NCBI GenBank assembly: GCA_963402885.1
Contig: OY727096.1
Span: 7,573,501 to 7,637,500 of the forward strand
Direction: 5' to 3'
DNA: 64,000 bases
Origin: Antedon bifida
Lineage: Eukaryota; Echinodermata; Crinoidea; Comatulida; Antedonidae
Made by a program: the position numbers and the translations under genes. Below, piece after piece: positions 42,420 through 62,608 of the stretch; within the stretch, counting starts at the first letter, position 1, and each line of letters opens with the position of its first letter. Under the pieces are notes generated by a model. The model ran no database searches. It saw only the letters and a list, made by a program, of their open reading frames with translations, and was not told the origin of the DNA.

Positions 42420-42436
42420 GCCAAACTGCGTGTAAA

Positions 42437-45400
42437 ATGGGACCACGTACATTACTGTCGATTCTGTTTGTTACATATTACGTCGAATGTGTTGCTGGTG
42501 AGTAGAGAATAATAGGCATGTTGTTTTTAACAGTGGCAGAATACGCTTTTCTAAGATGAAAACAAATAGATTACGTAATTATTTTCTCTCATCATTCTGA
42601 AATTGTTTTTAGGTGAACATATTTTTATCCAATTTTAATATGACACTGTTTTCTAACCATTTTATGATGTTTAATACTTGCAATTTCTTAAGTTGTTTTT
42701 GTATGTGTTGAATTATTATTGTACCCTGGTTTTTATATGTGACAAGCAAGACAAAGTTCGAGCCAGAGTGTTTGACTAAATAAAATAATTGAATCGAATT
42801 GAGTTTCACTAGAGACGTAACTCAAGGACGTAACCGCAACGTATAGTGAGTGATATGGAATGTTCAAACAGTTCATTGGTCAACTCGCTTGCGTTGCGTG
42901 TGCGTCACAGCATTGCGAGTCCATTGGGATTGTATTTTACGGTCTATAAGTGATTTTTGTGCACACTATAACAATGAGTTCACTCTCCATTTTCACAGGA
43001 TAAGAAACTAATTTCATGTTAATTAATCTAATAATATGAACCAGAAATCTGGCATTAGAAATATGATAACCATCTAGGTGCGTATTGTTTATTCGTAGAC
43101 TAAAAATGTCATTAAAAATTGCCAAAATATGCCTGTTTCTTTTGAATTAGGTGCAGCCAAGCCTAGTCGAAATATAGGAATTTATTTTATTTTCAGGGTG
43201 TCCAACTAATGAATGGATTTACAAATTCGAATTTTCAAAATGCTACTGGTTCAGCGAAGTATCTATGAAGTGGGATTCCATGAGAGGGAGATGCCTAAAA
43301 AAAACTGGCGATTTGCTTAGAATTTCAAGTGAAAACGAAAACATGTGGATATTCGAGCAACACTTTTTTAAGTCAGATTCAGCTTGGATTGGCTACAATG
43401 ATAGACAAACAGAAGGCGAATTTGAATGGGTGTCAGGAAGTAGTTCAGGATATACAAGTAGGTTTGCGATTCTATACATTTTCTAAATAGATTTATCGAC
43501 AATGGTAAAATAGCCGTCTCAGTCGAATAACGCCACACAAAACCACGATATTTTACAAACATAATGAATATTTAGGCCTACATATACTACTCGTTCTATT
43601 CTTATCAATATTGTTGTTGTAGTTGTAGTAGTTGATGTTTATTTAAGTTATTTGTTAATCATCTATATGAATGAGTTGGGAATAGAATAGTTGGGCTTTG
43701 ACTATCATTTCTTCAATGCCGATAGTGTCGGCTTGGGTTAGGAAACTTCGAGTTAGTGCGATATTCCTTTCATGTTTAAAATGTACCAGAGAGTGATCTT
43801 TTACATGTCGTCTGTGAATCGTATCTATTATGTTGTGTTTATTGTTTTATGTTTTTTTATGTAAAAGGGTCCTGCGAAAACAGAAGTGTAAGCTTCTCTA
43901 TGCAGGATCCTTGCCATCATTTATGCTATGAAACTTATGCTATGATTGTCATGTTTTGGTAAAAAAATCCGACTACATATAGATGAACAGACAGACATAT
44001 GTTACCAACACTATCCTTTTACCCAAATAAGTAAAAGGTAACATAAAAAAATATGATGATAAATAATACTACTTACTGTACAAACTTAATCGAGATATCA
44101 TCATAATGGCTATTTATTGATGGTACAGTATTTGTATTAGTAAAGTACTATAGGCTTAATCCTTAAAAATGTATTGTCCCCCAGAAATATAAAAAATGAA
44201 GATTAATAAAAGAAAGACTTTGAATAGGCAATTTCACTTTTTTTACATTTATGCTATGAAACTTATGCTATGATTGTCATGTTTTGGTAAAAAAATCCGA
44301 CTACATATAGATGAACAGACAGGCATATGTTACCAACACTATCCTTTTACCCAAATAAGTAAAAGGTAACATAAAAAAATATGATGATAAATAATACTAC
44401 TTACTGTACAAACTTAATCGAGATATCATCATAATGGCTATTTATTGATGGTACAGTATTTGTATTAGTAAAGTACTATAGGCTTAATCCTTAAAAATGT
44501 ATTGTCCCCCAGAAATATAAAAAATGAAGATTAATAAAAAAAAGACTTTGAATAGGCAATTTCACTTTTTTTACACAGTTTAAAATCACTTCCGTATAAA
44601 AAAAAAGAACAAAACCAATGTTTTCACCTATAATAATAAGTATTTCGTTTCTTTAGATTGGAATGCTAGTGAACCCAACGATTTGTCTGGTTGGGAAGAT
44701 TGTGTTTATTTTAATCAATCCTCACATGGTACATGGTTTGACGACTCGTGTGATTTGAATTTGTTTGCTATATGTGAAAAGTGTAAGTAATTAATTACAT
44801 ATTGTACATTTAGACATTGACTGTTGCATTATTTCATATTTTACCCAGTTTACACAGTTATGGTTACAGAACTGAGAAAAATAAGAAAGGTGACCTATAT
44901 CAATAACAATTTCGGTATTAGTGTAATATATTTGTTTGAATAGTAATCAGTAAGCAAGTTGTATAACGTGTATTTATCCAGTAAGGTGCTTTTCTGTTAT
45001 GAAGCATACATACGCCATTGCGAAACCCTCCCGCCCCACACAGAGAAAGAAATATTGGAGACAGTCTAGTTGAACGTACATTTGTTTATCTTAAGTGTGT
45101 TTTTATTTTGGTATGGGTCATGGGTTATGCTTCTATTCAGTTTCTATTTGATTTGTAATTTTACATGCAATTATAACCTAATAAACTATGACTAGTTTAA
45201 ATGTATCTATCATTATGAACGATATAGAAATTAATTGAACATTGTAAATTTGACCATGGTATTCAAAATATCTTCCAGATATCAACTTATCCAATGTTCT
45301 TCGGTGTCCGTCTGATGTGACCGTAGACCTAACTACTACTGCAGCAGCCGGTGCGACCTACGAGATATGGGTAGCCACATCCTTCATTCACTATGTTGTT

Positions 45401-48400
45401 CTTGCACCGGAATTTTATGAAGTAGTTTTTAGTGAGATAGATGTTGGTGTATCTATGTATATTTTACAAGCTTTGGCCATTTACAATAATGTGTTACTGA
45501 ATTGTCAGTTGATCCTACGTGTTGAAGGTTAGTTTATATATATTTTAAATCACAGTGAATACTATGCAATAAGAACGTTATAGCATTATTATTGTTATTT
45601 TTGTCATTGTCGTTGTCGTCGTCGTCTTACGATGGAGATAGGATATTGGCACGATAACTTCGCAACAGTATTACGAATTATTGCGACAGTGCTAAAACGG
45701 CATCAGGATGCTATGGCACACTACGAAAATACTAAGAGTAGGCCTACTATGAAGTAATTTCGTCTTCAATACGATCTTGTCAAGAAGTTTGTACGTCAAT
45801 GTTTTGATCACTCTGATGCTATAACGAATTTGAACATTTTCTAATTCGTGTTCATTCTTTGTGTAGCCAATAGCCGGATAACTGCTTTTTGTTACCGTAT
45901 TACTGCACCTAGTATTTATTTCCTCCACGGCATCGCATAGAGAAAGAGAGAATGCTATAAAAACACAATACTAATTTCGCTGATGACGCTGCCACCACAG
46001 CCCACAGTGTAGAAGCACTCCAGCGCCTCATTGACTGCTTCTCACATGCATGCGAGGAGTTTGGCCTTACCATCAGCCTTAAGACGATGCCGCCAATGCT
46101 CCTGAGATCAAAATTGGCGATTATACCCTTGAGGTGGTGGACAAGTTCACTTACCTTGGTTCCATTGTTTCCAGTAACCTCTCATTGGACGCCGAACTCA
46201 ACATCAGGATCGGAAAAGCGACATCAGCCATGGCTCGCCTAACAGATAAGGTTTGGAAAACCGCAACTGTAGAGAGTCCGCAGGCGATTTTGAAAATGTA
46301 ACACCTCTAGATGGTCGGAAATGGCACTCTCACGTTAAATAAATGTATTCAAAATTGATATTTTAAATATGAAAACTGAGGTTACTGACCTACATTTTTA
46401 AAATGGCTGGTTTTATAATATTATAATGCACTTGGTCCACCTGTAATCCAAAGCAGTTTAAAGCAAATAAAACAAAAATATGTTAACAAATAAAAAGTAG
46501 AAAAAAGAAAAAATGCAGACGTTAGAACAGTGGACATAGAGCAACGTTCTATCAATTCATTGTAAAACATTGATATTGGTATACACAACACAATTAATAA
46601 CCCTTTAATTATTTTTACGGTTATTGAAAGTGTACTCACCTTTAGTTTTGGTTTGTGGTTCAACCGGGCCACAAGTAAAGATAAGTCAGATCTACAACAT
46701 GTCGTTATTACATATCATTGGAATTGAACAGAGCTCTAGAATCCGTTTTTGAAAATCGATTGATTAAGAAAACACATTCTAATAATTGAAAGATTCTACT
46801 CATCCCGTTCATAATGTATTACTTGTTTACTTGTTCCCGGAGCTCATCATCTGCTGGATCGGGGGTCGAGGCTAGGCTATGACTATAAGCCCCTCTTGAA
46901 AATGACATCATATCTCGAATACGGGGCAAATTTTAAAGGGTGATTAGTTGATATTGAAGATATTACATCCTCCGGTAATGCATTCCATAGTATGATTGCT
47001 TTATAACCAAACGAGCCTCTCATCCAATTTGTGCGTGAAAACTTAAATTTTAATTTGAAGAATGACCAAGTGTTCTGACATCTTCATCAAGTTTAAAAAA
47101 AGAATCAGCTGAAACATTATCAACTCCGTAATATGGTGTCATAGTGGTAGACGTTATCGGTCCATCATCTCTCGTACAAATAGGTGTAACAGCTTTTATC
47201 CAGTTGCCGTTCGGGCCGTACTGAATGCTTGTCAGTAAACCGTACGAAAGTGACACTTTGACTTGTATTTGTTTTTGTTGGTTTTTTATTTATCTGTTTT
47301 CTGTATATCTCAGAACAAGCATAATTTTGTATACATATTATTGTATTTAAAAATGACGTAAATGGAAATAATTTTCCACTGATGAAAAAATTGGATCAGA
47401 CAATGAATACAGAGTGGGGAAGCAGTGCAAAATAAAGCATAATCAGAAATAAATAAAGCAAAAAAAAGTAAAATAATCAAATTATAAATATTGCTTCTCA
47501 AGATATGACATCAAAGTTCGGTATTCAGTTTTTTTCTTATTTTGTAATATAATTATTTTTCTCCATAGGCACCATAGGAGGCACAACATCTGATTTGACT
47601 TGTCCGTCTGGAAATTTGAATCTAGTCACTGATTTCGGTAAACCCACGGCCACTGTTGACTATTCAACCAACATAAGTGCAACTGACAACTTAGGCGAAC
47701 CATTGGAAATCTCCCCGAATCCAGAAGATATTTTTCCCGCTGTTATTGGGATTGGAAGTCACTTGTTTGTGTTTGAGGCTACAGATGTGGAGAGTTGCAA
47801 TTTTACAATATTAGTCAAAGGTCAGTGAAATACATTACATTAAATAGGCAGTTTGGGCAATTTCCGTATCCGTATACGTGTGGGAAAGTTGGTGTACTAA
47901 GTCACACATCCTGTGTAGCTTGACATCAGCACCATTGTGCGTTTCGATGTGCGGATTACATGTCACACGTCTATGGCTCGACTGTCTATACACTATCAAA
48001 CTAGTTCGAAGCTAAAAAAAAGTGCGATCTGTCCAAATATGGAAATGATATACACAGATATGGTAGTGATATGACATCATAATGTCCATATATGGACACA
48101 TCACATTTTTGTTGATAGTTCAGACAGAACTTTAAATGAATTCGCTAAAATGTAAGTTGTTACGAATGCGGCACAGATCACATGACTTGCACATAAATTA
48201 ATCAAGACATTTAAGACACAGTTTTAAGTTTAAGAAATGTTTTGAGAAAACGACAAAGAAGTAATCAATAATGATGCGACAATGCTGTGAACCTAGGCTA
48301 GGATCCTTATACGTGTTGTGATACGGATACGGATACGTATGCGTGAGTTTGCCGAAACTCTCTATTTATGTTTTGTACCATACGTAGTTAATCAATGTAA

Positions 48401-51395
48401 ATATTGAATTTAATGAATTAGCACAAATATAATTGCATTCACATACCTTGTATTCCTTAAAAAAGTGCTTTAGTTTGTTTGTAAACCAACACTCGACCCT
48501 GACATAGATACAATATTTCATATAATGCGGTACAATTTATGATAGGTCTAATTAATTATACATTTTAATACAATAGAATAAAAGGTAATACTCTCTAAGG
48601 CTAAAATAAAAAGTCATTGAAAACGCATAAGCCTACCAAACGAATAATACCGTACTAATAATGCACTGTATTATAATACGCGTACGATGTTGGATGTGTA
48701 TTCTTGTTTGAAATTAATATTTGTTAACATTATGAGAGAAATAATATTAAGTACATGTATTGTGGGATAATAATGGACATATACATGTACAATCAGATTA
48801 CTTAACCAATCATCGCTTGAAACACAAAAAATGAAGGTCAAAATATTCTAAATTTAAATTGGCCATATCAAAGTAATATTAAAGTTAAAAGAAAATTCGA
48901 GCCAAAAACAGCAAGTTTACGTAATTAACAGGTAAATTAATTTGATTACATTTCGTCTGGAAAATCGTCGCGAGCGAAGTAAACAAAGATTTCAAACCAC
49001 GAGTATGCATTATGCATGATGCTAATTAGGATTGTTTACAACTCGTCATGGTTGAGAAGGTGTTTTCACACAGATTGCGAGGAAATTTTATGATTATGCA
49101 TACAGAGTAGCCAAACAAGCGCATTGAGATATGTTTTGATCGAAAACTTTGACTGGAAGTCAAAGATATTTTTTGAACAAAAAACGTCTGTATTTCAGTT
49201 AAATTTTTTTTTTCGACTAATTTTTGGTGAAAGTTTATAACTATTATGATACTTCAAAATGACCGACTTTTTTTCGAAATCTTTTTTTTTTTATTTTGTT
49301 TTAAATTAGTCAAAGGGACAATTAAGACATCTTTAAATATTGGTGCAAGTTGGTTACCGTTTTCATATCATTTATTTATATCCAAATAATATTGTGACCT
49401 TTATTGTTACTACGTTACAACTATAAAGTCCTTGGTTCAGCTCAGTAGGGCAAATCCAGAGCAATATAAAGAGTTACGACTTTGAAGATTAGAAGCCATT
49501 TTTGTGTTAAAGAATTCGCACGCATATATATGGCTCTGCTTTGTATAGCGTTTTCCTGTAGTTCATGCAATTTTTTTAATAGATTTTGTTGCCTATGAAA
49601 TAATGCATATACTCCGTTTTTATTTTAGTAATTAATTTTATTAATGGTATTGATTTTGTAACATATATATATTTTTATAATAACAAAAAAATAAATGCTA
49701 GGGCCTACATGCAAGTTAGGATACATCAAAGCATGAACCAATACAAAAAACACGCAAATTCACCCTTCTTTTTATACAGTATATGGCTTTCTGTTTGTTG
49801 TTATTGCATATCACGTGACTTTAATCCAATGTCGTAACTCTTATGGCTCTGGGCAAATCCATCTAATACGACATTTAATATATTTTTCTTGTATGCATAT
49901 GCAAGATAATGTCCACGAGGCTTTTGTTTGTTCATTCATTTTTAAATTATCTCATTAAATTCGAGGACCACCATTAAGCCATCTAGCTCACTAACCGCTC
50001 CCAATGCACTAGATATTTTAACTCTATTTCCAATGCTTGTCCTATCACCTGTGGCGTCCCCAAGACTCCTTACTTGGCCCACTTCTTCTGTCCACCATAT
50101 ACACAATAATGTCTACCGTGCCCCAAACTTAATATTTTATTTATGCAGATGATACTACAGCCAACAAAAATAATAAAACACTTTTTGACACCTTTAATAC
50201 CAACGTTATCACCTTGTTGTCCCAGTACTTTGCTGCTAACAAACTCTCCCTCAATCATCATAACAAAAGTAGCAACTTTTTGGAACCCACAGTTCAAAAA
50301 CAATTATTTTTTCACTTATAAATGACAAAATAAATGGTTAAATTCAACCAAAAATCCATTAGCTGGCAGCCAATTTGTCTATTTTTTGCTTTAAACTACA
50401 GTTTTTTCAGGTAAATACATTTTTTTTCGATCTAATTTTTGGTCAAAGTGGATAAATATTATGTGACATTAAAATGGCATATTCAACAGAAAAATGTTTA
50501 ATATTATTTTTTTCGGGGGGACAATACATCTTTAAAAAAACGTTATCATGATTATATTTTCAACACTGTATTAGATACTCATGTATAACAATTTACCTCC
50601 CTCAATTTCTTGTGCTGCCACGCGAAAATTAAAGATCACTTTTTGTCTCGATATGTTTGATATGGTCGTTGTTTCATGTTCTGTCGCTTGATTAATTTAT
50701 TCTATCGTCAATTTTATCTGCTCATCATTTTTACTTCATGTTTTCTTTACTGGAATAATCTCTATTTTTTATTACTTTATTTTTATTTTATTTATTTCTT
50801 TAATTTTAATTTCAGTGTTTTATATTATTAATTTGTCAAGGCAATTCAATTCCGCCACAAGATGTTCATCTTTTTACGATTCTACCTTCGTCCATTACTT
50901 TTCTTTCAATCTGTCATTACTGGGATTATTTTACTTATTGTCTGTTAGACGAAAATAAATGTCTTTTGAAATTGATTTTGTCCTTCTAATAATACGAGCA
51001 ATCATAGACATAGAGATTTTGACCTGGTATTTGAAGCTTGCTATCAATTTAACATAACTTCCTAATTCATAATGTTTTTTTATTTGTATGACGTATGTAT
51101 ACTTGGGTAATAAATCGAGAATTGTTTTTCACTAGATACCGAAAATCCTGTTTTGACCTGTCCGTCTAACAATTTGACTGTAGGCGTGGATTTCGGTAAA
51201 CGCACGGCCACCGTTGACTATTCTAACGACGTAAATGCAACTGACAACTCAGACGAACCATTGGAAATCTCTCCGAATCCAGCAGATGTATTTCCCGCTG
51301 TTCTTGCGATTGGAAGTCATCTGTTTGTGTTCAATGTTACGGATGCGTATAACAACACAGGGAGCTGTAATTTTGCAATAATAGTTGAATGTTAG
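42437..51395 (+). CDS. Secreted C-type lectin with three HYR domains (lectin gene A)
   Basis: Six coding exons, all junctions phase 1: 42437-42497, 43197-43457, 44657-44782, 45279-45527, 47569-47820, 51136-51395; 402 residues. Exon 1 is a signal peptide (MGPRTLLSILFVTYYVECVA). Exons 2-3 form a long-form CTLD with the six expected Cys (GCP, KCYW, GRC, EDC, DDSC, ICE), the WIGYND core and the Ca2+-site motif EPN; the usual WND is WFD. Exon 4 is a diverged HYR domain (CP near its start, NNVLLNCQLILRVE at its end); exons 5 and 6 are typical HYR domains and closely similar to each other (EPLEISPNP, FPAV, IGSHLFVF). The frame stops at TAG 51,393-51,395, followed by AATAAA at 51,444. An acceptor at 42,418-42,419 shows the leader is spliced. 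Expected role: extracellular glycan recognition. Confidence 0.9.
43921..44576. repeat. 328-bp tandem duplication, two near-identical copies
   Basis: Copies 43,921-44,248 and 44,249-44,576, both starting TTATGCTATGAAACTTATGC. I noticed only about two differences (ACAGACAT/ACAGGCAT; AAAAGAAAG/AAAAAAAAG). Each ends in a MITE family 2 fragment (GTATTGTCCCCC ... GACTTTGAATAGGC). In intron 2 of lectin gene A, within the CTLD-coding region. Confidence 0.9.
45976..46272 (+). mobile_element. LINE reverse-transcriptase fragment (RTE-like)
   Basis: FADDAATTAHSVEALQRLI, with the catalytic (F/Y)ADD box, then HACEEFGLTISLK. A frameshift/deletion follows at about 46,085, and the frame then continues VVDKFTYLGSIVSSNLSLDA and RIGKATSAMARL. 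A truncated, dead copy in intron 4 of lectin gene A. Confidence 0.8.
46880..47256 (-). mobile_element. Decayed LINE 3' coding fragment
   Basis: On the minus strand: KLDEDVRTLGHSSN, stop, then FSRTNWMRGSFGYKAIILWN and ALPEDV. The R-T-N...GSF-Y-A...LWN-LP pattern is the usual end of CR1/L2-like LINE ORFs. In intron 4 of lectin gene A, facing opposite to the fragment at 45,976. Confidence 0.6.
47981..48134. mobile_element. MITE family 1 copy
   Basis: TGTCTATACACTATCAAACT on the left, TTGATAGTTCAGACAGAACT on the right, with TATGGTAGTGATATGACATC in the core. In intron 5 of lectin gene A. Confidence 0.7.
49449..49861. mobile_element. MITE-like element, family 3
   Basis: Inverted ends: CCAGAGCAATATAAAGAGTT with ACGAC on the left, GTCGTAACTCTTATGGCTCT with GG on the right. 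One end of the same type occurs alone at 60,808-60,835. About 400 bp, no coding content. In intron 5 of lectin gene A. Confidence 0.5.
49980..50300 (+). mobile_element. LINE reverse-transcriptase fragment (CR1/L2-like)
   Basis: Around 50,145 the frame reads FYLYADDTTA, the RT catalytic YADD box, followed by LLSQYFAANKLSLNHHNK, the typical (W)FxANKLSLN motif. Upstream is a frameshifted CGVP-type region (TGTGGCGTCCCC at about 50,050). A MITE family 2 copy follows at 50,326. LINE-like 3' sequence may run on to about 50,985. In intron 5 of lectin gene A. Confidence 0.8.
50326..50535. mobile_element. MITE family 2 copy
   Basis: GTTAAATTCAACCAAAAATC, TTTTTTCAGGTAAATACATT, ATTATGTGACATTAAAATGG and the end GGGGGGACAATACATCTTTA, in the same order as at 14,930 and 30,440. 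It appears to have inserted into the LINE remnant just upstream. Confidence 0.65.
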
Positions 51396-51443
51396 TAACA
51401 TAGAAGTACAAATGTTTATACCTATAAAAAAAGTTAAGCTTTT

Positions 51444-51449
51444 AATAAA
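51444..51449 (+). terminator. Poly(A) signal of lectin gene A
   Basis: AATAAA 48 bp after the TAG at 51,393-51,395, with a T/G-rich stretch after it. It supports ending gene A at that stop rather than splicing on at the GTTAGT that overlaps it. Confidence 0.55.
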
Positions 51450-51689
51450 CTCTGGTCTGCTTTTATAAACCATGGTTTGTCTCCCTTGAAAGAAAAACAA
51501 TGGTTTGTAAAAGGAAAACTATGGTATGTTTTTTTTTATCGAGACAAAACATTGTTTTTAAAAGACAAACCGTGTAGAAATGAATGAACATAATTATTTG
51601 TTTTATGTATAAATCACATTGATAGATCTAAAAGCCTAACATCTAAAGACTGACCTCGAAATAATCTTCATCACTCGATAACATAAGAT

Positions 51690-52150
51690 AAAGTTTACTC
51701 ACGCCTAGCATTTTATTTTATTAACGGTAGCCAAGACATATATACGAAAGGAATCCCAGTGTCAGATATCAACTGTTACAAGCAGATTCACTAAAATGGA
51801 AATCTTGATCCACGATGATCCATCAAAGAACCTGCAAGATCTTCAACACAAGAGGTGAGTTTTCAGACCTATGCTTTTTGTATTATTGTTATTATATTTT
51901 TGGAACGTTTTATCTGACAATTTCTTGGAGTTTCATTTAACGTAGTTTGTTAGTTTGGATTATTAGAATAATTACTGATAACTGTATAATTTAATTTTAT
52001 GTTTCAATGTAATAGAAGAACACTGTTTCCCGACGATTAGCTGATTTTGACATCCAGTGATCAAATGTCTGCTTTCATTCCTGACATGACAGTTAGAAAG
52101 GTTGATTGGACAACATTATCACCATGATTTCGACTGCTTGAAAATATTAG
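51690..52150 (+). pseudogene. Decayed copy of the VPS13B 3' end (exons 48-49)
   Basis: Part 1 (about 51,696-51,855) aligns with VPS13B exon 48. CACGCCT matches; from the GGTAGC to CCAGTGTCAG the two run 34 bases without a gap; then ATCAAAGAACCTGCAAG...CTTCAA parallels ATTAAACAAGCTGCAAC...CTTCAA. Even the junction corresponds: GAG/GTGAGT here, GAT/GTAAGC in the gene. Part 2 (about 52,000-52,130) aligns with the intron end and exon 49: CAATGTAATAG/AAGAACAC against TAATGTAACAG/AAAGACAC, then TAGCTGATTTTG, TTCATTCC and GACA..TT.ATC.CCAT. In-frame stops, frameshifts and a deletion destroy the frame. Because intron edges are included, it arose by genomic duplication, not retroposition. The intron is ~150 bp and lacks the minisatellite present in the functional gene. 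Confidence 0.75.
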
Positions 52151-54285
52151 ATTTTGATTTAATAAAAATAAATAGAATAAATAAATAAATTTATTTTCTT
52201 TTTCTCTTTCAATGTAAACAAAAATACAAATTTTAATATAAATTATAAAGAGGCAAAACCCAGGAAGGGTCCTCCAACAAAAAACATGTGAAGGCTAGCC
52301 ATTTAAAAAAAATAAATAAATTGTAATCATATTGATATTTGATTTAACATACAGAAACAAAAGGGGACAGCAAAGCACAAAAAGACAAGATGATTGATAC
52401 CATGGAAGCACAGAAAACCAAAATGTTTTTATTCTGTTTTACTTTTTTCTGATATTGTTAGTGAAGTATAGAGTATTGTATTGTAAGCCTTTATAAAAAA
52501 AGGTAATTAGGCTGTGGTCACACAACAGACATGGCCAATCGAAAGAATGTCCGCATTCTGCACCTGTAAGTTTGTGCTTAATCCTTCATCTGAATAACGA
52601 GCCAAATCACTTTGGATGAGGCAAGATTTTTCTTTCCCTTTCTTCTATATTTAATTTTGTTATTTCTTTTATTCTTTTCTTTTGTTTTCTTTCATTATTC
52701 TCTTTCATCATTTTGTTTTCCTTCATTATTTTCTTTTCTTTCATTATTTTCTTTCTTTCTTTTTTTTTCTTTTTTATCCTCTTTATTCTTTCTTTTTTTC
52801 TTTCTTTCATTCCTTTCTCTTTCATTATTTCAATTTATTTGTTTTCTTTCATTTATTTCTTTCTTTCTCTTCTTTTTTCATTCTTTTATTTCCTTTAATT
52901 TCTATCTTAGTAATCAATGTACGTGGTTCAATTAGGGACATATACATGTGATATGTTTTTATTTTTAGATAGATATTTATCGGGATAAACGTTTACCATG
53001 ATAACAATCTTGTTTAAATCTTATATTAGATAGATAATAGACTAAAGCATACAGTATAATTTGTATGTTCAAAGAAGAATAAGAAATTTGGTTTTACACT
53101 CTATAATGATTATGATTATCATTATTATAGATACTATTTATCAATGTAAATTATGTTAGACTTAACATTTTAAAATCCATATAGGCAAGGCAAGTGTGGT
53201 TTTATTTCGGGATGCTTTTATTAATATTACGTTCAATTCACTTTTGATCAGAACTAGTGGTTTTCGCTAAACAGAATCGCTAACTTACCTTAGATCATTT
53301 TTGCCAGGTTTTTAAATGGATTTATATTTCTAGCACTGTTTCAACCGAATTTTACCTCTGTTATTTTATCAGGGAAGGATATACGGTGGAAAAAACCCGT
53401 TTATCATTTTAACAATCTTTAAAACAATTTGTAATTTAACAACAAAGATTGTAGATAGATTATAGACTAAAACATAATAGTAAAGGTAATATTTTGCACT
53501 CTGTAATGATTATGATTATTATATGATTATGGATACTATTATATCAATGTAAAGTTGTAAAATGTTTGGTTTAATGTTGGAATGCTTTGATATTACGTTC
53601 AAATCACTTCTGATCAGAACTAGTGGTTTTCACTAAACAGAATCGCTAACCTACCTTAGATAATTTGTGCAATGTTATCAAATGGATTTATATTTCCTGC
53701 ACTGTGTCAACTGAATTTTACCACTGTTATTTAAACAATATTTTTGAATTTTATCACTGTTTTAACTGAATTGTATGCACCGGTGACATGATTTTATGAG
53801 GGAAGAGTAAATTTCACACTTCCCTGATTATATAAATATTATAACTGAATTTTATTACTGGATTTCATGCGTAAAAAAGTAGGGGTTTTTTGTTGTAAAA
53901 TCATATGTTTTGCAATTTTGTTCTGTGTTTCAATGCTAAGCGTCATATACTTTATATATAAGTAATGATTTTAACATAAAATACTACAAGAACTGAGATG
54001 TGCCGTACTTACAGTAAAATATACAAACGATACTTGTCCTGTTGGCCTTGTGAAATCCTACTCAGGTCTACTTTAATAATGTTGATCGTTTAAAAATTCA
54101 CTTAAAGTTGAATTGAATTAATCAAATGGATGAAATCATAATTGAATTTAGAAAATGTTATAAGACCCACAGCCAATTGTCGGTTAAGAATGATACGGTA
54201 GAGATTTTCAACAAATATCAATGTATGTTACAAAGTAATCATGCACTCTACTTTTTCAAACATATGAAGATAAATGCAATAGTCT
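52151..54285. other. Intergenic: homopyrimidine tract and a diverged tandem duplication, no gene
   Basis: 52,620-52,900 is an almost pure C/T stretch (TTTCTTTC-type), the sole reason for long frames there. 53,010-53,365 and 53,400-53,760 are diverged copies of one unit; both have CAGAACTAGTGGTTTTC, AAACAGAATCGCTAAC and AAATGGATTTATATTTC. Nothing coding was recognised. Confidence 0.6.
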
Positions 54286-54595
54286 AAAGCTCTGTCTACA
54301 CTATCACATCACAAAAAAAATGTGATGTTCCCAAATATGGAAATGATGTCTTATCACTACCATATTTGGGCATATCACTACCATATTTTGGCACATCACA
54401 TTTTAATAATTTATCGTGCTTATAAACTAAGTCTTATTTGAGGCTTAGGGAGTGAAGTTGAAAGAGTCATGTGACAACCCTGCACTAGGTCAGGATTGAA
54501 CCTTGGGATTGGAAGGCAAGTACGTTAACCACCAAGCTACAGCTCCACTACAAAAATAGTTTGTTGGTAGTTTGATAGTGTAGACATAGCTTTAT
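54286..54595. mobile_element. MITE family 1 copy interrupted by a SINE
   Basis: AAAGCTCTGTCTACACTATC opens the element and TTTGATAGTGTAGACATAGC closes it, but the two halves are separated by a foreign block at about 54,407-54,550. The block is the tRNA-derived SINE, so the SINE is younger than this MITE copy. Confidence 0.75.
54407..54550 (-). mobile_element. tRNA-derived SINE nested in a MITE
   Basis: Same element as at 22,375-22,525: on the minus strand TAGCTTGGTGGTTAACGTAC and AAGGTTCAATCCTGACC (A- and B-box), with the body running to TAATTTATCGTGCTTA on the plus strand. Confidence 0.75.
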
Positions 54596-54984
54596 GATGG
54601 TGTTTTATGAGTGATCAGTTTTAAATTTTAGGTTACAGTTTTTCATCGATATAAAAGTGAATGTCTATATTCAACAAACAAAATTAAATAATATGTTTTC
54701 AGGGGGACAATATACCTTTAAGGGTTTTACTGGTATTTTTAAAACATTTTAACTATTTTAAGTAACGTTTAACATGAACTTTGTTTTTTCTTGTATAGTA
54801 TTTTATCTGCCTTGTACCTTAATAAAAAAGATTTGTTTGACTTGTGCACCAATTATACATAAAATGTCAAATAGCATTAATTGATATCATCAAAAATGTT
54901 TTTGGGGTTTTCTGTGTAATATGTATGTAACAATGATCATTACAAGGTTTTTACACAATTAAAAAAATGTTATTATTTATCTGA

Positions 54985-56287
54985 ATAGCAATTATACCCG
55001 CCCCAGGGCGGGTTTCAAAATTAGTTTACAGCCTTCTCAGTACATAACACTCGACGCCAGTATCTGTCTATACTCACCAACCTCTACCCCTCTTCAATAA
55101 CACCCCATACTCTTTCTTAAAAAACGAATTCTTCCCAGTGATGGACAAATTTAATTCAACCTAAGCTAAATTGAGAGGAGTATACATAGCTATGATGGGT
55201 CTAATAATGGTTGAAGTACGTTGTAAATTGTGTAAATGAATAGGTGTCATATTGGCTGATAATTAAAATATCTAATTTAGATACTGCGGTCTCCAGCCTT
55301 CTTTCTCCTTTCACCACCCCAGCCACCATCAACAAACCTTAATTCCTCCCCTGGACAGTTCAAATATAGTAACTTTTCCTAGTACAATTCCAATCATATA
55401 GGTTACTTCATTACGCTAGTATTTTCGCTCCTCCTCCCCCTACAAACACACCCCAGATACACTGGGTGATGTGTTGAAGATGGTTTCAGTACAAATTATG
55501 TTATTATCACTCCCAACCCATAATCCCTCAGTGGCAAATGTAGTTTAAAACATTCCAAATACAGTTTCGGTGGTGATAGGCCTACATCCCCACCCCAAAC
55601 TCCCAGCCGCTTCCCAGGGATAATTAATTACTTTAACATTTTCCAACCACAATTCTGGTGTAAGCAAAATCCCCACTATCTCCCAACCCCACTCTCCCTC
55701 AATTGACGTTTTTTTCCGTGGAGGAATGGTGATGTAGTTGAACACAGTAACAGATAACAACGTGTGTATTTTCACACAGGAATGGATGTCTGTAATGAGA
55801 CAATCCAAGAGACCGATACATAGCTGGATATGGTTAAAGTACTTTGCTAAATGTGTAATTGAATAGGTGTCATATTGGTTAATGAATAAAATATCTATAT
55901 CTATACTTTTGTAGTACAATTTTACAATTCGATAGCCCCCACCCCCCCCCCCCTTCTACAAAAACCTCAGGAGTGGGGGCATTTTTTAAATGTAGTCTAA
56001 AACCTTCCGGGTACAATTGCCATCATTTTGATACCCCATATGTATGGTTACGTGCAGAAACAGAAATTTGTATAACGAACACACATCGAAAGTGGGGGTT
56101 TTGACCACATTTTGGTTCCTAACTTGGATCCTAGGTGGCGGATGATGTTGAAATATAGCTTAGAACATTCCCGGTACAATTGCGGTCATTTTGATATCCC
56201 ATATGTAAGATTACGTGCAGTAACAAAAATTTGTATAACGAACAAACAGACAGACAGACGTACAAACTCTCTCACTTATAATATAGA
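54985..56287. mobile_element. Non-autonomous transposable element of about 1.3 kb
   Basis: Begins at about ATACCCGCCCCAGGGCGGG and ends ACAGACAGACAGACGTACAA followed by TCACTTATAATATAGATT, an end type common in invertebrate retroelements. Internal blocks repeat: GAATAGGTGTCATATTGG at 55,242 and 55,863, and CGGTACAATTGC.. with TACGTGCAG around 56,000 and 56,190. It splits one copy of a tandem duplication: the flanks 54,850-54,985 and 56,287-56,440 reappear, undivided by the element, at 56,450-56,610 and 56,795-56,950. Confidence 0.6.
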
Positions 56288-57298
56288 TTGTGTCATCAAG
56301 TCGATGGATAACAAGAACCCATTGTAACTTGAGGATAAGCTTTTTGAAATCATTAATGCAGTTAATAATTGCGAAGTTCAAAAATAATTATTATATCATA
56401 AGGTGTCCATTAATCAAATTCTTCGGCGTGTAAATTGTATATAGATTATACATAATGTCAAATAGCATTAATTGTCATCAGAAATGTTTTTGGTGTTTTA
56501 CATAATACAAACCTGTTTACTTACAGTATAATATGTGTAATATGTATGTAACAATGATCATTACAAGGTTTTTACACAACAAAAAAATGGTATTATTCTG
56601 AACTGCAATGTTGTCATTTTTACTTAGACGTTATCTTCAACCAAGTTTGTTTACATGCAACCATTTTAAGTTCGAATGTATTGTCAAACACATCATGTCA
56701 ATTAAAATGTGTATTAGGCAAGGTTAAAAAGTCACGATTAAAATAGTTACAAACAAAAAATTACAGATTCTAGGTCACCGCTAATATTCTGTATTGTGTC
56801 ATCAAGTCGATGGATAACGAGAACCCATTGTAACTTGCGGGTAAGCTTTTTAAAATCATGAATGCAGTTAATAATTGCGAAGTTAAAAAATAATTATTAT
56901 ATCGGAAGCTGTCCATCAATCAAATTCTTCGGCGTGTAAATTGTGATCTTAATCATGTTTTTATTCATTCAGGTAGGGAGCCAGTTTTACACGATAACAT
57001 TAGTAGTTTCTACTTTTTGCGAAGCGACTAATTTTGCAACCAATCAGAGCTCAAGGAATGAGTTGTCATGCCTTCATGAACACTAATGCTTATCGAAAAG
57101 CTCAGGAAACACACCATGGAAATACAAATATTTTAGTAGAGAAACGGAGGTAGTGCGATTGTTTACCTGCAAGACAGGCTTTGAGAGAAATAGTAGCCCT
57201 ACATGTACGATATATATTAAAGAAATTCTGTATTATTGCTGTATTATTTTACTTCATAATCGACAGTAAAACGTTTTGTATTAGTTATATTTCTATAG
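56288..57298. other. Tandem duplication and leader region upstream of lectin gene B
   Basis: 56,288-56,440 and 56,795-56,950 are near-identical (GTGTCATCAAGTCGATGG ... AATTCTTCGGCGTGTAAATT). After that come ATTCATTCAGGTAGGG (56,968-56,983), echoed by ATTCATTCAGGTATGAG (40,664-40,680) upstream of gene A, and an acceptor-like TTATATTTCTATAG ending at 57,298. A non-coding first exon may lie here, but it cannot be fixed. Confidence 0.45.
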
Positions 57299-57320
57299 CG
57301 TTGTGAATTTTATTGTCAAA

Positions 57321-60300
57321 ATGGAACCAAGAGGACGTACAATAGACCTACTGCCACTATTTTTAATTTTTGCACATTGCATCATCTGTGTTGCTGGTGA
57401 GTTATCTATGTATACAGTAGTATAGAAACTAAAGCTCTGTTTACACTATCAAACTTTATGTTAGTGGTAGTGGTATGCCCAAAGAGGGTAGTGATATGAC
57501 ATCATCATGTCCATATATGGGCACATCACAATTTTTGTCACATAAAGTTTGATAGTGTAGACAAGGTTTAAGGACGAGAATTGTGTTTATGGCCTACAGT
57601 TTTGATCATTTTTGCACACATGTGATCTGACCGTGAATTTGTATTCGCCACTTTTTTATGCTTCGTTGTAAATAATAATATGGTAGTGGTATAACCAAAG
57701 AGGGTTGTGATATAACATCATCATGTCCATATATGGGCATATCGCATTTTTTGTCACATTGAGTTTGATAGTGTAGACAAGGTTTAGGACATCTGATCTG
57801 ACCGTGAACTTGTAATCGCCACTTGTTCGATACTTCGTTGTAGATAATAATAGACTAAAGATATTGCATTATACAACTTACTTCATGTTCTCCCAAGTTT
57901 ACTGTACAATACCTTTGAAATGCCATTGCAGTCGTCAAATCAAGTATACATAACGTTTAAATAAATGGGAATTTATTTTATTTCAGGGTGTCCAACTGGA
58001 TGGCATTACAACGCCGCATTTTCAAAATGCTACTGGGTCACCAACGCATCTGGTACGTGGAATTATACAAGAGATATATGCACATATTTTACCGGTGATT
58101 TAATCGAAATTTCAACTGAAGAAGAAAGCTTGTGGATACTTGAACGATTTGCTGAAGATTCCACATCAGATGGAGCTTGGATTGCCTATAATGATATCGC
58201 AATAGAAGGCTATTTTCAGTGGCTGTCTGGGATGAGTGGGAACTATACACGTATGGGTTTATTACAATTTTAATTAGAGAGAACTATCCGTATTAAGATA
58301 ATTTACTGTTATAATAATTTATTATAGATTTAATAAAACAACTTCAATACAGAAATACATTTTCGATAGTTAAATGTTAATCTTAGTATTTTAGCCTACT
58401 TGATTATAATATTTTGATGGTCGATAAAACGTTCGACTAGATACGGCAGACAAACCTACCAAAAGTATCAACTTACACAAATAAAAAGGCGGTAACATTT
58501 AGAACCCCTTAAACGATCGTTGTTGTATCTACATAAAGCTCTGCCTACACTATTAATGTGACCAAAAAATGGGATATTCCCATATTTGGACATACAGTTG
58601 TCATATCACTACAATATTTGGGAATCTTACTTCCATTTTTGGGCACATCACATTTTGTTGTTTGTCAAATTAATTTGATAGTGTAGACAGAGCTTAAGAC
58701 GAAGATAGCAGTATGTAATTGATACAGGGTCAACAAATGCAATTTTAAAAGCAGTGGTATCGGAATGTACCTACATGTCTTGCTAGCGAAGCAAAGACAC
58801 ATGAAAGCAGATTTAATAAAAATATATATATATATTTAAAAAGTTCATTTAATTGCTCAATCGTCCAATCAAATGACAAGAATATATTTAGATTATTTAG
58901 GTCTGTTATAATTATATTTTACGTTTCTTTAGATTGGTATGATGGTGAACCCAATCAATTGGGTAACGAAGATTGTGCTGTTCTGCATAAACCTTCAAAC
59001 GGTGCTTGGCATGACATCTCGTGTGCAGAAACAGCGTGGGTAGCGTTATGTAACAAATGTAAGTAATACAATATGATTATATTACGTTTGGTATATTTAC
59101 ACACAGGCTACTGTAGATATTATTATTAATATTATTTCTTCATTATTACCTCCACCTAAGAGATGTGGTGGTGTGTGTGTGTGTGTGTGTGTGTATGGGC
59201 GAGATGTTAATTGGCATCTTTCCCAAATAATCACAAAACTTTTTAAAACCGAATTAGGTCTTCGCAATATTCTTGACGTATTCTTACGTATGTGATATCT
59301 TTAGGTTACAACTACCGAAACGCCATGCCGTTACCCCCTGCTGCGTCTAGACCGGGGGGACCCCGAAAGGTGGTAAACAATCGGCACCAATTAGATGAGA
59401 TACCACCTAATTTCACCATGGTATCTACAATATCTAAGCCAGGCTAGTTGGGGGAGGGGGTCTCTAGTCGAAATTTAGAGGGGTCTGCCAGGACCAAGGC
59501 AGTGTACAGATAGTCTGTAATAGGTCATTTGGTATTTCTTACAATGTGCTAAATCATATAATATTGGTTGCTGGTGGTATCTACAATATCTAAGCTAGGC
59601 TAGTTGGGCGGAGGGGGTTTCTAGTCGAAATTTAGAGGGGTCTGCCAGGGCCAAGGCAGTGTATAGATAGTCTGTAATAGGTCATTTGGAATTTGTTACA
59701 ATGTGCTAAATTATATAACATTGGTTTCTGGTGGTATCTACAATATCTAATCTAGGCCAGTTGGGTGAAGGGGGATCTCTAGTCAAACTTTAGGGTGTCT
59801 GGCACTTGTGGTGCAGCAGACAATTAGTCTGTCGTTACCTATTTGGTATTGTATGAACACAACTTGTTTATTTGGCATTAATTTTGAGTGGTACCTCACT
59901 CATCTATGCTATCCCCATTTTAAGGCCCTCTCTGGGGGTCTGGTGAGCCTATTGCAGCAGACAAAATGTCTGTCGTTGGTGATATTGGTATAAGGATGCC
60001 AATGGGCATTCCATGGTGGTGAAATTAGGTGGTATCTCTCTTATCTAATTGGTACCGATTTTTTTAGCACCTTTTGGGGTCCCCCCGGTCTCTAGACGTA
60101 TCAAGGGGTACCCGGCAGAATCCCATTTACATTGACTTCAATTGACCCCCAACACACTTAAATAGTCAGATATAGGTACCTAGCTCATCTAAACAAATGT
60201 CTCTGGGCTGTCTGTCTAATTGTCACTACTCTTTAACATAGAAAGCATTAAAAGGTAAATTAATTGAAATACCTTTTCCTTTCAACATTAATATACACTG

Positions 60301-61995
60301 ACGCTTGTTGTTTGCAGCGATATTGTTTATCTTCTGCTTCATATTGCTTCTTTCTTGCTTTATTCAATTCTTTCTTCAAATTCTCCAATTCTTCGTTGAA
60401 AATCTCACTAAATCGACACATTTCTGATTCATTCTACAAAGAAAACTTAGTATTATGCTCTGTCTACACTATCAAACTTTATGTGACAAACAAATGTGAT
60501 GTGCCCATATATTTGAACCCGATGACGTCATATCACTACCTCACATACACCTCACACATTTTTGTCAAACTAGTTTGATAGTGCAGACATAGCATTAGAA
60601 ACAATCTACCCTTTTTTCAAAATTACCTACTACATTATCTTGTACACATGCGCACAATCAAAGATTTGTTACATTCTATATACGTCTTCTTTATTAATCA
60701 ATTGCTCCTTAAGCTTTTTCATTTCTTCTTCATGCTTTTCTTTCCTAGCTAGGCCCTACTAGATGGCCGGTAATGTACCACTTTTAAAAATCCACACAAT
60801 GTCGTAACTCTTTATATATATGGCTAGCTCTGGACTTTATCTAGCTTGGTAGTGGTATCAATGACTATCAAATAAATAAATGTTACGTAGCATAAAAAAT
60901 AAAGCTGAGGTCGGATCTGACAGAAAAAAAGACGGTCGTTTTTAATCACATTTGTTGTAGTTAATACAAAGTATGTACATTTGTATTTATAATCTACTAC
61001 ACGCGTACAGTAATAATATCAAATTCGCCGATTTCCTCTCTATTGTTAATAAATGCCAAACCGGCCATGATTGACAACTTTAATATAGATCGACGTCGTT
61101 GTAATTACCAGGACTTTCAATTTGATAACACAGCAATTTCGTAATTTTTAAGAATCAAATAAGACAGTCAAACAATATGTTAAATTCAAAATTCATTTAT
61201 TAATCCTTTCGGAAATGTAAAAAAATACAAAAGAGGAAGAAAACGTCATAAAATATGAGTACAAATTTAACAATAACCTTATTGCAAATCATCAGTTACG
61301 TTTAAAATTTTATTAAAAATGACTTGTGGAATATGGAACAATGGAATATGATTGACAACTTGAATATAGATCGACGTAGTGGTAATTAGCAGGACTTTAA
61401 ATAACTGCAATTTGATAATACAGCAATTTCGAAATTTTAAAGAATCAAATAAGACAGTCAAACAATATGTTTTAGTAAGTCGAAAACAACGGAATATGAA
61501 TAATTAAGATTAAAAGAAGTAAAGAAGTATGACTTTGCTTCATTTACTTTTTTCGGCCGTACTGAAGAAGTTAGCCATTTTGTCTGTAGTTTGCTGTGCT
61601 TAATCATGGTCAGCGAATTGTAGTTGTATTTATAGAGCATTCCACAAACAATGTCGTCTCAATGCGTTTTGGATGTTTTCAATTACATGCTTTTCCCATT
61701 ACTGTACTATTATATAACATGCTTAGACTAATCATATTTCCAGATATCAACCCGCCCAATATTCAGTGTCCGTCTAACGAGACTTTAGTAACAGAATTAG
61801 GTACTGCAGCATCAGCCAATGTGAACTATTCAATCACAATAGAAGAGGCCTTCATTTCCTGTGTAACAATTGTACCGAACCCAGTTGACATATTCCCTGC
61901 TGATCTACATTTGGGAAAACATCATTTTTACTTCGAAGCTTACGATCGTTACAATAATTCCGTAACGTCGTGTGCATTTACAATAATTGTTGAAG
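57321..61995 (+). CDS. Secreted C-type lectin with HYR domain (lectin gene B), paralogue of gene A
   Basis: Exons 57321-57396, 57987-58250, 58933-59058, 61744-61995, all phase 1 at their ends. Exon 1 is a signal peptide ending CIICVA. Exons 2-3 form a long-form CTLD: GCPTGW, FSKCYWV, IC, WIAYND, EGYFQWLSG, then EPN, EDC, WHDISC and LCNK; six Cys and EPN are kept, while WND is WHD. Exon 4 is an HYR domain (CPSNETLV, IVPNPVDIFPADLHLGKHH, TSCAFTIIVE). Intron positions and phases equal those of gene A exons 1-4, so the two are tandem paralogues. The last exon ends GAA G/GTTAGT: it either splices to an exon not seen here or reads into TAG at 61,998-62,000, giving about 240 residues. No AATAAA is near, so the 3' end is unsettled. 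Expected role: secreted glycan binding. Confidence 0.87.
57431..57570. mobile_element. MITE family 1 copy
   Basis: AAAGCTCTGTTTACACTATC on the left and TTTGATAGTGTAGACAAGGT on the right; core GGTAGTGATATGACATCATC. In intron 1 of lectin gene B. Confidence 0.75.
57681..57786. mobile_element. MITE family 1, partial copy from a local duplication
   Basis: Repeats the right two thirds of the copy at 57,431-57,570, and the flank after each (TGATCTGACCGTGAA, CGCCACTT, CTTCGTTGTA) is also repeated. So a ~225-bp block containing the MITE was duplicated in tandem. In intron 1 of lectin gene B. Confidence 0.65.
58535..58695. mobile_element. MITE family 1 copy
   Basis: AAAGCTCTGCCTACACTATT on the left, TTTGATAGTGTAGACAGAGC on the right, GGGCACATCACATTTT near the right end. 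In intron 2 of lectin gene B. Confidence 0.75.
59165..59196. repeat. (TG)n microsatellite
   Basis: A run of GT dinucleotides (about 12) in intron 3 of lectin gene B. Confidence 0.9.
59318..60122. mobile_element. Foldback element with long inverted ends and internal tandem repeats
   Basis: Left end about 59,321-59,420 and right end about 60,011-60,120 are inverted copies. CTAGACCGGGGGGACCCCGA and CCACCTAATTTCACCATGG on the left answer CCATGGTGGTGAAATTAGG and GGGGTCCCCCCGGTCTCTAG on the right. Inside are three direct copies of a ~155-bp unit (GGTATCTACAATATCTAA..CTAG..AGTTGGG) at about 59,420, 59,573 and 59,731, and CAGACAAT/CAGACAAAATGTCTGTCGTT repeats nearby. No coding frame. In intron 3 of lectin gene B. 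Confidence 0.8.
60260..60744 (-). pseudogene. Coiled-coil coding remnant, two exon-like blocks on the minus strand
   Basis: Block 1 (60744-60684) reads KEKHEEEMKKLKEQLINKED and ends GAC/GTATAT in phase 0. Block 2 (60433-60260) follows an acceptor CTTTGTAG and reads, in phase 0, NESEMCRFSEIFNEELENLK and on through KKELNKARKKQYEAED to a TAA at 60,260-60,262. The amino-acid pattern is strongly coiled-coil and the two phases fit. Against a working gene: block 1's acceptor lacks a pyrimidine tract, no upstream exon was found, and a MITE sits between the blocks. The style recalls the C-terminal coiled coil of GIMAP/AIG1-like GTPases, but no GTPase domain is present. It lies inside intron 3 of lectin gene B, opposite strand. 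Confidence 0.45.
60453..60597. mobile_element. MITE family 1 copy
   Basis: GCTCTGTCTACACTATCAAA on the left, TTTGATAGTGCAGACATAGC on the right, GATGACGTCATATCACTACC in the core. It lies between the two coiled-coil blocks on the other strand. Confidence 0.75.
61066..61470. repeat. Diverged tandem duplication, period about 283 bp
   Basis: ATGATTGACAACTTTAATAT.. at 61,066 recurs at 61,348, and both copies run to AGACAGTCAAACAATATGTT. In intron 3 of lectin gene B, before the HYR exon. The rest of this intron (60,836-61,743) shows nothing else recognisable. Confidence 0.7.
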
Positions 61996-62608
61996 GTTAG
62001 TACGTCGATATGGATGTTGTGATTATTGAAATTAACGTGATTTATCTTACAAATATTGAAAGCCCATGCATAGGTTTTATGTTTGCATGACATTTTTGTT
62101 CAGAACAAAATGCAATCAAACTTAAGAGATTATAGTGGAAAAACACCATCTATAAAAATGTATATGTTTGAAAATATTCAATACAACCCAATCTATATTA
62201 TAAACTCAACATTCAAATGAATATTCCAATGATAATTAATTAGCTTATGTTAAGACGCATTTAGTAAAAATGTGATTTTATAAAAACAAAATAATAATAT
62301 GATGTTTATTTATTGTGGTCAGTGACAGTAATAGTTATATCAACTTATGTAAACTATTTAAACTCAATTATACCAACTTGAAACTTGTACATACTTATTT
62401 TATATTTTTTTATAAACTTTAATCATTGCTTCAATGTGGATTCTTCGAACAGAATTGGTAGGATAATTAATATTTATTACAACATACCAACATTGTCGAT
62501 TTAGAGTAGACTTATTTTAGATAAATTAATAAATGAAAACAAAAGTAACTTAACAATTTGAAGGAATAAAAACAGATCCTTAAATTGTAACTTACTTTTA
62601 ACTAGGCA

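Follow-up and report, generated by a model that had tools for sequence, protein, structure and literature searches.

Exon plan of two lectin genes

We analysed a 64,000-nucleotide stretch of the Antedon bifida genome (the window; contig OY727096.1, here C9, positions C9:7573501-7637500 of a 315.6-Mb genome in 27 contigs), in which an initial annotation made from the letters alone had placed a tandem pair of secreted lectins built of a C-type lectin domain (CTLD) and HYR domains. Rather than standing as a pair, these genes (G1 and G2) belong to a series of thirteen CTLD genes (G1-G13) that lie head to tail on one strand over ~160 kb. From the predicted gene structures it is highly probable that the window holds the left edge of an array in which adhesion G-protein-coupled receptor (GPCR) genes stand in tandem with relatives that lack the receptor half; G2 would be a receptor with one HYR and G1 a paralogue without the GAIN and seven-transmembrane (7TM) half. 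All gene models are predicted splicing read from genomic DNA, and feature positions are window positions unless prefixed by C9. The exons of G1 are:

42437-42497, forward strand: exon 1, signal peptide (ATG...GCTG↓GTGAGT, exit phase 1); similar signal exons precede other array genes
43197-43457, forward strand: exon 2, first half of the CTLD (Pfam Lectin_C 63.2 bits on the spliced protein)
44657-44782, forward strand: exon 3, second half of the CTLD with EPN and WFD (same 63.2-bit match on the spliced protein; motif alignment)
45279-45527, forward strand: HYR1, very divergent (leave-one-out profile 32.6 bits, shuffle maximum 7.4)
47569-47820, forward strand: HYR2 (leave-one-out profile 95.7 bits, shuffle maximum 10.6)
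51136-51395, forward strand: HYR3 and stop TAG (Pfam HYR 36.4 bits)

Spliced together, the six exons encode 402 amino acids with three HYRs, with AG/GT splice sites and every intron in phase 1. The stop TAG occupies 51393-51395 and an AATAAA follows at 51444, 49 bases past it; in this last exon a T, not the usual G, stands before GTTAGT. The head of G2 follows the same plan, its CTLD being split over two exons at the same break point as that of G1:

57321-57396, forward strand: exon 1, signal peptide (spliced open frame)
57987-58250, forward strand: exon 2, first half of the CTLD (Lectin_C 44.9 bits on the spliced protein)
58933-59058, forward strand: exon 3, second half of the CTLD with EPN and WHD (Lectin_C, open frame)
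61744-61995, forward strand: HYR exon (Pfam HYR 23.7 bits for this exon by itself)

Both CTLDs score above the Lectin_C cut-off of 22.6 bits, and they share 48% identity. For HYR (family cut-off 21.7 bits), HYR3 is the best stretch in G1; the G2 domain is marginal, reaching 20.3 bits in a 240-residue protein ending just behind it and 17.9 bits in the 694-residue protein described below, and G1 HYR1 and HYR2, given alone, had no Pfam HYR match. We also scored these domains with a leave-one-out HYR profile of 11 HYR exons from the array and a second cluster, which included G1 HYR3 and excluded G1 HYR1, G1 HYR2 and the G2 HYR, with 300 shuffles of each as control; besides the two G1 values listed above, it gave 99.5 bits for the G2 HYR, with all shuffles at or below 10.6. 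The initial description of a signal peptide, a two-exon CTLD and HYR domains arranged on one plan with phase-1 introns is thus borne out for the listed exons by their AG/GT sites, Pfam and the family profile; of the two domains it named, the CTLD is over its cut-off in both genes, and HYR is over it in G1 HYR3 and marginal in G2.

Sugar binding by a CTLD relies on calcium-site motifs, EPN or QPD together with WND. G1 and G2 both have EPN, but WFD (G1) and WHD (G2) replace WND, and the predicted sugar site of both is imperfect. EPN occurs together with WND in 2 of the 15 genes examined (G5 and G7); G8 and G10 have QPD at the aligned place, their EPN pattern being a neighbouring stretch, and G9, G11 and G12 have none of the EPN, QPD and WND motifs.

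Probable receptor exons behind the G2 HYR exon

The G2 HYR exon is followed by a TAG at 61998-62000 that overlaps its GTTAGT donor, and a gene ending there would encode 240 amino acids with one HYR. In-frame TAGs right at the donor are also present at G1 HYR1 and at two G3 HYR exons. When sequence following the final G3 HYR was compared with the other units, conserved blocks appeared behind G2, G4, G5 and G6. G1 showed none, and G7 only a match to the signal exon of the next gene. Translated, the open frames of these blocks yield a GPS and a seven-helix domain, the first joined peptide scoring 160.8 bits for 7tm_2 and 27.2 bits for GPS; the view that G2 is complete at 62000 was set aside, since the comparison among paralogues shows conserved exons downstream. 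Aligning G2, G3 and G6 gave twelve downstream exons (X1-X12), with introns in all phases; the claim that every intron is in phase 1 therefore holds for the head exons of both genes and fails for the GAIN, GPS and 7TM exons of G2. These exons are, for G2:

62453-62457, forward strand: putative micro-exon AATTG, 5 bases, phase 1 to 0 (conserved block)
62606-62711, forward strand: X1, start of the GAIN region, with a GC donor (G2/G3/G6 alignment)
62961-63062, forward strand: X2, GAIN region (G2/G3/G6 alignment)
63405-63489, forward strand: X3, GAIN region (G2/G3/G6 alignment)
63606-63726, forward strand: X4, GAIN region (G2/G3/G6 alignment)
C9:7637666-7641458, outside the window, forward strand: X5-X12, GPS and TM1-TM7 (alignment, Pfam)

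Eight of the 17 modelled G2 exons fall beyond the window. The spliced frames are open and free of stops in G2 (17 exons, 694 amino acids), G3 (21 exons, 1029 amino acids) and G6 (22 exons, 1113 amino acids); acceptors are AG and donors GT save for the GC at X1, phases match, and the models run through TM7. Full-length Pfam scores for G2, G3 and G6, respectively, were 152.6, 158.2 and 155.1 bits for 7tm_2; 33.0, 35.2 and 35.4 bits for GPS; 42.2, 55.8 and 53.5 bits for Lectin_C; and 17.9, 88.2 and 117.3 bits for HYR (in 1, 4 and 6 stretches, at an E-value limit of 1). The consensus of the GPS cleavage site is HL↓S/T, and all three proteins keep a site of this type, HL↓T. Their best relatives of solved structure (PDB) are ADGRD1 and ADGRL3, with matches that begin ~50-60 residues before HLT.

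Because the open frame past the TAG ends in a GPS and a secretin-type 7TM domain, G2 is most likely an adhesion GPCR of the order CTLD-HYR-GAIN/GPS-7TM, and its earlier description as a small soluble protein of CTLD plus HYR only is probably wrong, given the receptor exons at 62453-63726 and beyond the window. As the probable N-terminus of an adhesion GPCR, G2 comes close to the outcome that the initial annotation had named as contrary to its view, namely that the exons belong to one large known protein. Behind G1, none of the ten receptor-exon peptides used (of twelve) matched within 5.9 kb, and a 7TM remnant there was rejected, with nothing found either by nucleotide search or with those peptides. 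G1 is probably a paralogue without the GAIN-7TM half and may be either a secreted lectin or a remnant.

Putative junction between the HYR and receptor exons

Since the HYR exon exits in phase 1 whereas X1 has entry phase 0, the two can be joined only through an intervening exon whose length is 2 mod 3. In G2, G3, G4 and G6, the intron after the last HYR holds one conserved block ending in AG-five bases-GT, in which 31 of 36 columns are invariant over the four copies; its 26-base core has 4 exact matches in the whole genome, at these same four genes, with 0 matches on the reverse strand and 0 in a backwards control. The five bases AATTG form a putative micro-exon that would join HYR to X1 in G2.

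The same phase mismatch, which bars a direct HYR-X1 join, would also suit an arrangement in which each unit comprises two independent genes duplicated together, a secreted CTLD-HYR lectin and then a separate adhesion GPCR. We infer the five-base micro-exon from a pattern (AG-five bases-GT) that is common by chance; a start exon (ATGTGGATTCTT...) with a possible start ATG is another way to read the conserved block, and an in-frame ATG adjoins the start of X1 in G2, G3 and G6. A separate 7TM gene therefore keeps a small probability. Such a 7TM part would, however, be without a signal peptide, and the GPS and 7TM exons need one upstream because their model has none of its own. A relative at C9:6.05 Mb has, in one open frame with AG/GT sites, a HYR exon, a 107-base exon and X1; the 107-base exon runs from phase 1 to 0 in the place of the micro-exon, and the locus continues to a GPS and 7TM domain. 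At C9:1.99 Mb lies another relative whose X1, likewise of entry phase 0, lacks a Met at the position of the ATG in G2 X1, so this X1 is not a start exon. The bridge in one relative and the Met-less X1 in the other therefore favour one gene; they weaken X1 as the start of a separate gene, which we kept as a rival and consider improbable.

HYR exons also precede 7TM loci elsewhere in the genome. There are 91 merged 7TM loci, 86 of them outside the array, and 13 of these 86 have, on their own strand, a HYR exon at most 30 kb upstream, compared with 2 of 86 downstream and 0 of 86 on the other strand; 1000 trials of random placement gave a mean of 0.25 and a maximum of 2 loci with an upstream HYR. 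The HYR list comprised 241 places (the best 150 of 1376 candidates and 91 of the 149 rows of another search), and the 7TM list drew on the best 150 of 231 candidates. Since only part of the candidates was scored, the numbers are minimum values from a sample that is not unbiased. The upstream excess suggests that HYR-headed adhesion GPCRs recur in this genome.

At C9:1557353-1590579, a CTLD exon is followed on the same strand by a long array of HYRs and then by a 7TM exon; this locus may encode a CTLD-HYR adhesion GPCR of very large size.

Members of the tandem array

A genome search with the G1 CTLD exon (best 150 of 179 candidates scored) found, besides the query itself, 15 close relatives with identities of 42-56%, after which the next match drops to 44.6 bits. 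Twelve of these relatives share the strand of G1 and lie at C9:7.63-7.78 Mb; a further two are at 8.87-8.90 Mb and one is at 6.27 Mb. Profiles run over 264 kb (the window and its flank) identified 13 first-half CTLD exons plus one weak extra, 13 second-half exons, and 22 HYR matches, two of which are pieces of one frameshifted G4 HYR and one a partial G7 copy. The numbers of HYRs are three in G1, one in G2, five in G3, one in G4, three in G5, six in G6 and two in G7; no family HYR was found in G8-G13 by this profile search. A tree of 26 HYR rows shows the same exon types returning at matching places in different genes; the deep joins are unsure, because the strongest support falls on only 3 of 23 inner branches, the bootstrap is unsettled and G1 HYR1 sits on an extreme branch.

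The proposal of an expanded family with varying HYR number is well matched by these counts (the three intact receptors have one, five and six, and G1 has three), and the suggested search for further CTLD-HYR genes yielded HYRs in G3-G7 and two more genes at C9:8.86-8.90 Mb. The latter form a second cluster (C9:8862169-8896677, minus strand), with two CTLD genes whose four and five HYR exons belong to the types seen in the array.

Several observations weigh against an array of adhesion GPCRs. The score of the G2 HYR in its whole protein is under the family cut-off; no Pfam GAIN model matched the G2, G3 or G6 proteins; and two of the four usual GPS cysteines are missing in the alignment with ADGRD1. 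A complete receptor frame is present in only 3 of the 7 HYR-bearing array genes: G1 and G7 show no receptor half, and G4 is damaged, its HYR being frameshifted and matches to X4-X7 and X11-X12 not having been found. The distal genes G8-G13 (C9:7735146-7776763) are without a 7TM match among the best 150 of 231 candidates scored in the genome scan, and so are the second-cluster genes, where no receptor exon was found in 31 kb either. In G5 only X9-X12 are seen; a 200-N assembly gap (C9:7677620-7677819) lies where the exons for GAIN and TM1-TM2 would fall. A deletion of X1-X8 need not be assumed in G5, since the gap lies exactly there, and the missing exons are thus no evidence of decay.

Selection and possible soluble forms

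We estimated dN/dS (the ratio of nonsynonymous to synonymous divergence) from simple pairwise counts, which carry no confidence limits. For the pairs G2-G3, G2-G6 and G3-G6, respectively, it was 0.22, 0.22 and 0.27 in the 7TM part, 0.40, 0.37 and 0.54 in the GAIN region, and 0.55, 0.56 and 0.57 in the CTLD. The G1 CTLD gave 0.80, 0.77 and 0.69 against G2, G3 and G6. For G1 HYR1 the values were 1.20 and 1.29 against the matching HYRs of G2 and G3 (0.24 between G2 and G3), and for G1 HYR3 they were 0.32-0.60 against four relatives. The 7TM part is under purifying selection; from these values, the receptor half is conserved and the head more variable. G1 HYR1 looks unconstrained, and G1 is possibly a decaying remnant, since its HYR1 is without purifying selection.

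That the array consists mostly of pseudogenes, none of them expressed, would fit the state of G4 and the seemingly unconstrained G1 HYR1; we find it very hard to credit against three full-length open frames and the low dN/dS of the 7TM parts, and the absent exons of G5 fall at the assembly gap. Another alternative, compatible with our preferred explanation, is that soluble and receptor forms coexist, with G1 making a soluble CTLD-HYR3 protein and G2 also making the 240-residue form by intron retention. The stop of G1, its AATAAA and the 5.9 kb behind it point this way, as do the in-frame TAGs at the donors of the G2 HYR, G1 HYR1 and two G3 HYRs, an AATAAA at 62528, and the two C9:8.86-8.90 Mb genes. 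Secreted HYR proteins do exist, for example sea-star Sfp5 with three hyalin repeats, as described in the available text of PMC9382459. Against this, phase-1 G↓GTTAGT donors yield an in-frame TAG trivially, the dN/dS values of the G1 CTLD and especially HYR1 are high, and the last exon of G1 has its T where a G is usual before GTTAGT. We regard the soluble forms as conceivable, at somewhat under an even chance. The idea of a secreted family is accordingly compatible with G1, and G2 is probably a receptor.

Neighbouring features

A collagen-C1q gene adjoins the lectin array (15990-17624, minus strand), with a C1q match of 106.6 bits and a collagen stretch of 37.3 bits in neighbouring open reading frames (ORFs). 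At the left end of the window lies a VPS13-like gene (2-853, probably to ~35000), whose first ORF matched VPS13_N with 160.1 bits; two later ORFs of this region had no Pfam match. A 47-base tandem repeat of ~36 copies (40693-42378) ends just before G1. Within a G1 intron, a 328-base unit stands twice in tandem (43918-44575), with copies 99% alike, and is probably a very recent duplication. The ORF at 46083-46301, which we take to resemble a piece of a LINE reverse-transcriptase protein, had no Pfam match. Short elements at ~57434-57570, 58540-58700 and 60456-60600, with inverted ends identified by eye (GTCTACACTATCAAACT... and ...AGTTTGATAGTGTAGAC), look like a small non-autonomous transposon. 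Elsewhere in the assembly, a mitochondrial piece reads as ND1 with AAA standing for Asn in a conserved motif, and its ND1 is on the opposite strand from COX1, which supports an echinoderm well; a tRNA scan of this piece found none.

Relation to known proteins

The predicted G2-type proteins resemble adhesion GPCRs such as human ADGRD1 and ADGRL3 in their secretin-type 7TM domain, the GPS with HL↓T, a tethered-agonist-like TSFSVLMKV and a long modular N-terminus; they differ in an ectodomain of CTLD plus HYR array, in the two absent GPS cysteines and in the lack of a Pfam GAIN match. PLA2R and MRC2, of the mannose-receptor family, were among the best CTLD matches, and the long-form CTLD and the EPN-type motif are shared with that family. 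Mannose-receptor family members are single-pass receptors with many CTLDs, unlike the proteins here, which have one CTLD on HYR and 7TM. Hyalin is another HYR protein.

As a repeated extracellular module, HYR is also carried by Polydom/SVEP1 and Polydom-like proteins (the available text of PMC12549020) and by Sfp5 (PMC9382459, likewise); in these matrix or secreted adhesive proteins, unlike here, HYR does not stand between a lectin head and a 7TM domain, as far as those texts describe them. Amphioxus adhesion GPCRs carry C-type lectin domains in their N-termini (Nordstrom et al., 2008, PMC2246102, in the text available), so that an N-terminal C-type lectin domain and a lineage expansion in an invertebrate deuterostome are common to both cases; the main text of that account, so far as available, does not mention HYR, nor does it describe tandem copies that vary in number of HYRs. 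For choanoflagellate adhesion GPCRs, HYR may already be named in PMC12716839, whose indexed text has HYR twice and 'hyalin repeat' once, neither term standing in its main text so far as available. In the open-access literature we found no recognisable account of CTLD-HYR adhesion GPCRs.

Possible mechanism and significance

A complete member would begin with a signal peptide and a C-type lectin head, followed by between one and six HYRs, a GAIN/GPS region and a secretin-type seven-helix bundle. The lectin head may bind a glycan-bearing ligand in a calcium-dependent manner, with the HYR array as a stalk whose length would be set by exon number. GAIN would cleave itself at HL↓T; a pull on the head, or its loss, might then expose the tethered agonist TSFSVLMKV and start G-protein signalling, and the released head could itself act as a soluble lectin. 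According to the available text of PMC12716839, adhesion GPCRs can shed their N-terminal fragment on binding a ligand and thereby uncover a tethered agonist. An immune or cell-recognition role is a guess, made because the family has expanded.

More speculatively, the array may be a diversifying system of lectin-headed adhesion GPCRs, whose copies vary in three respects: the motif at the sugar site (EPN or EPS, with QPD at the aligned place in two distal genes), the length of the stalk (from one HYR to six, built of recurring exon types) and the form of the product (receptor or possible soluble lectin). Together they would equip an echinoderm with a set of glycan sensors that act directly on G-protein signalling; the boldest version adds that the phase-1 exons of G1 can also splice onto the G2 receptor as an alternative head. 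We put this forward tentatively and hold it to be rather doubtful.

Raw-sequence readings of HYR and CTLD genes can mistake receptor N-termini for secreted proteins, because the donor after a HYR exon can mimic an in-frame stop. Most adhesion GPCRs are orphans; here the C-type lectin ectodomain suggests a testable class of ligand, glycans. The copies with one, five and six HYRs would provide a natural series for asking whether stalk length tunes a receptor triggered by force or ligand.

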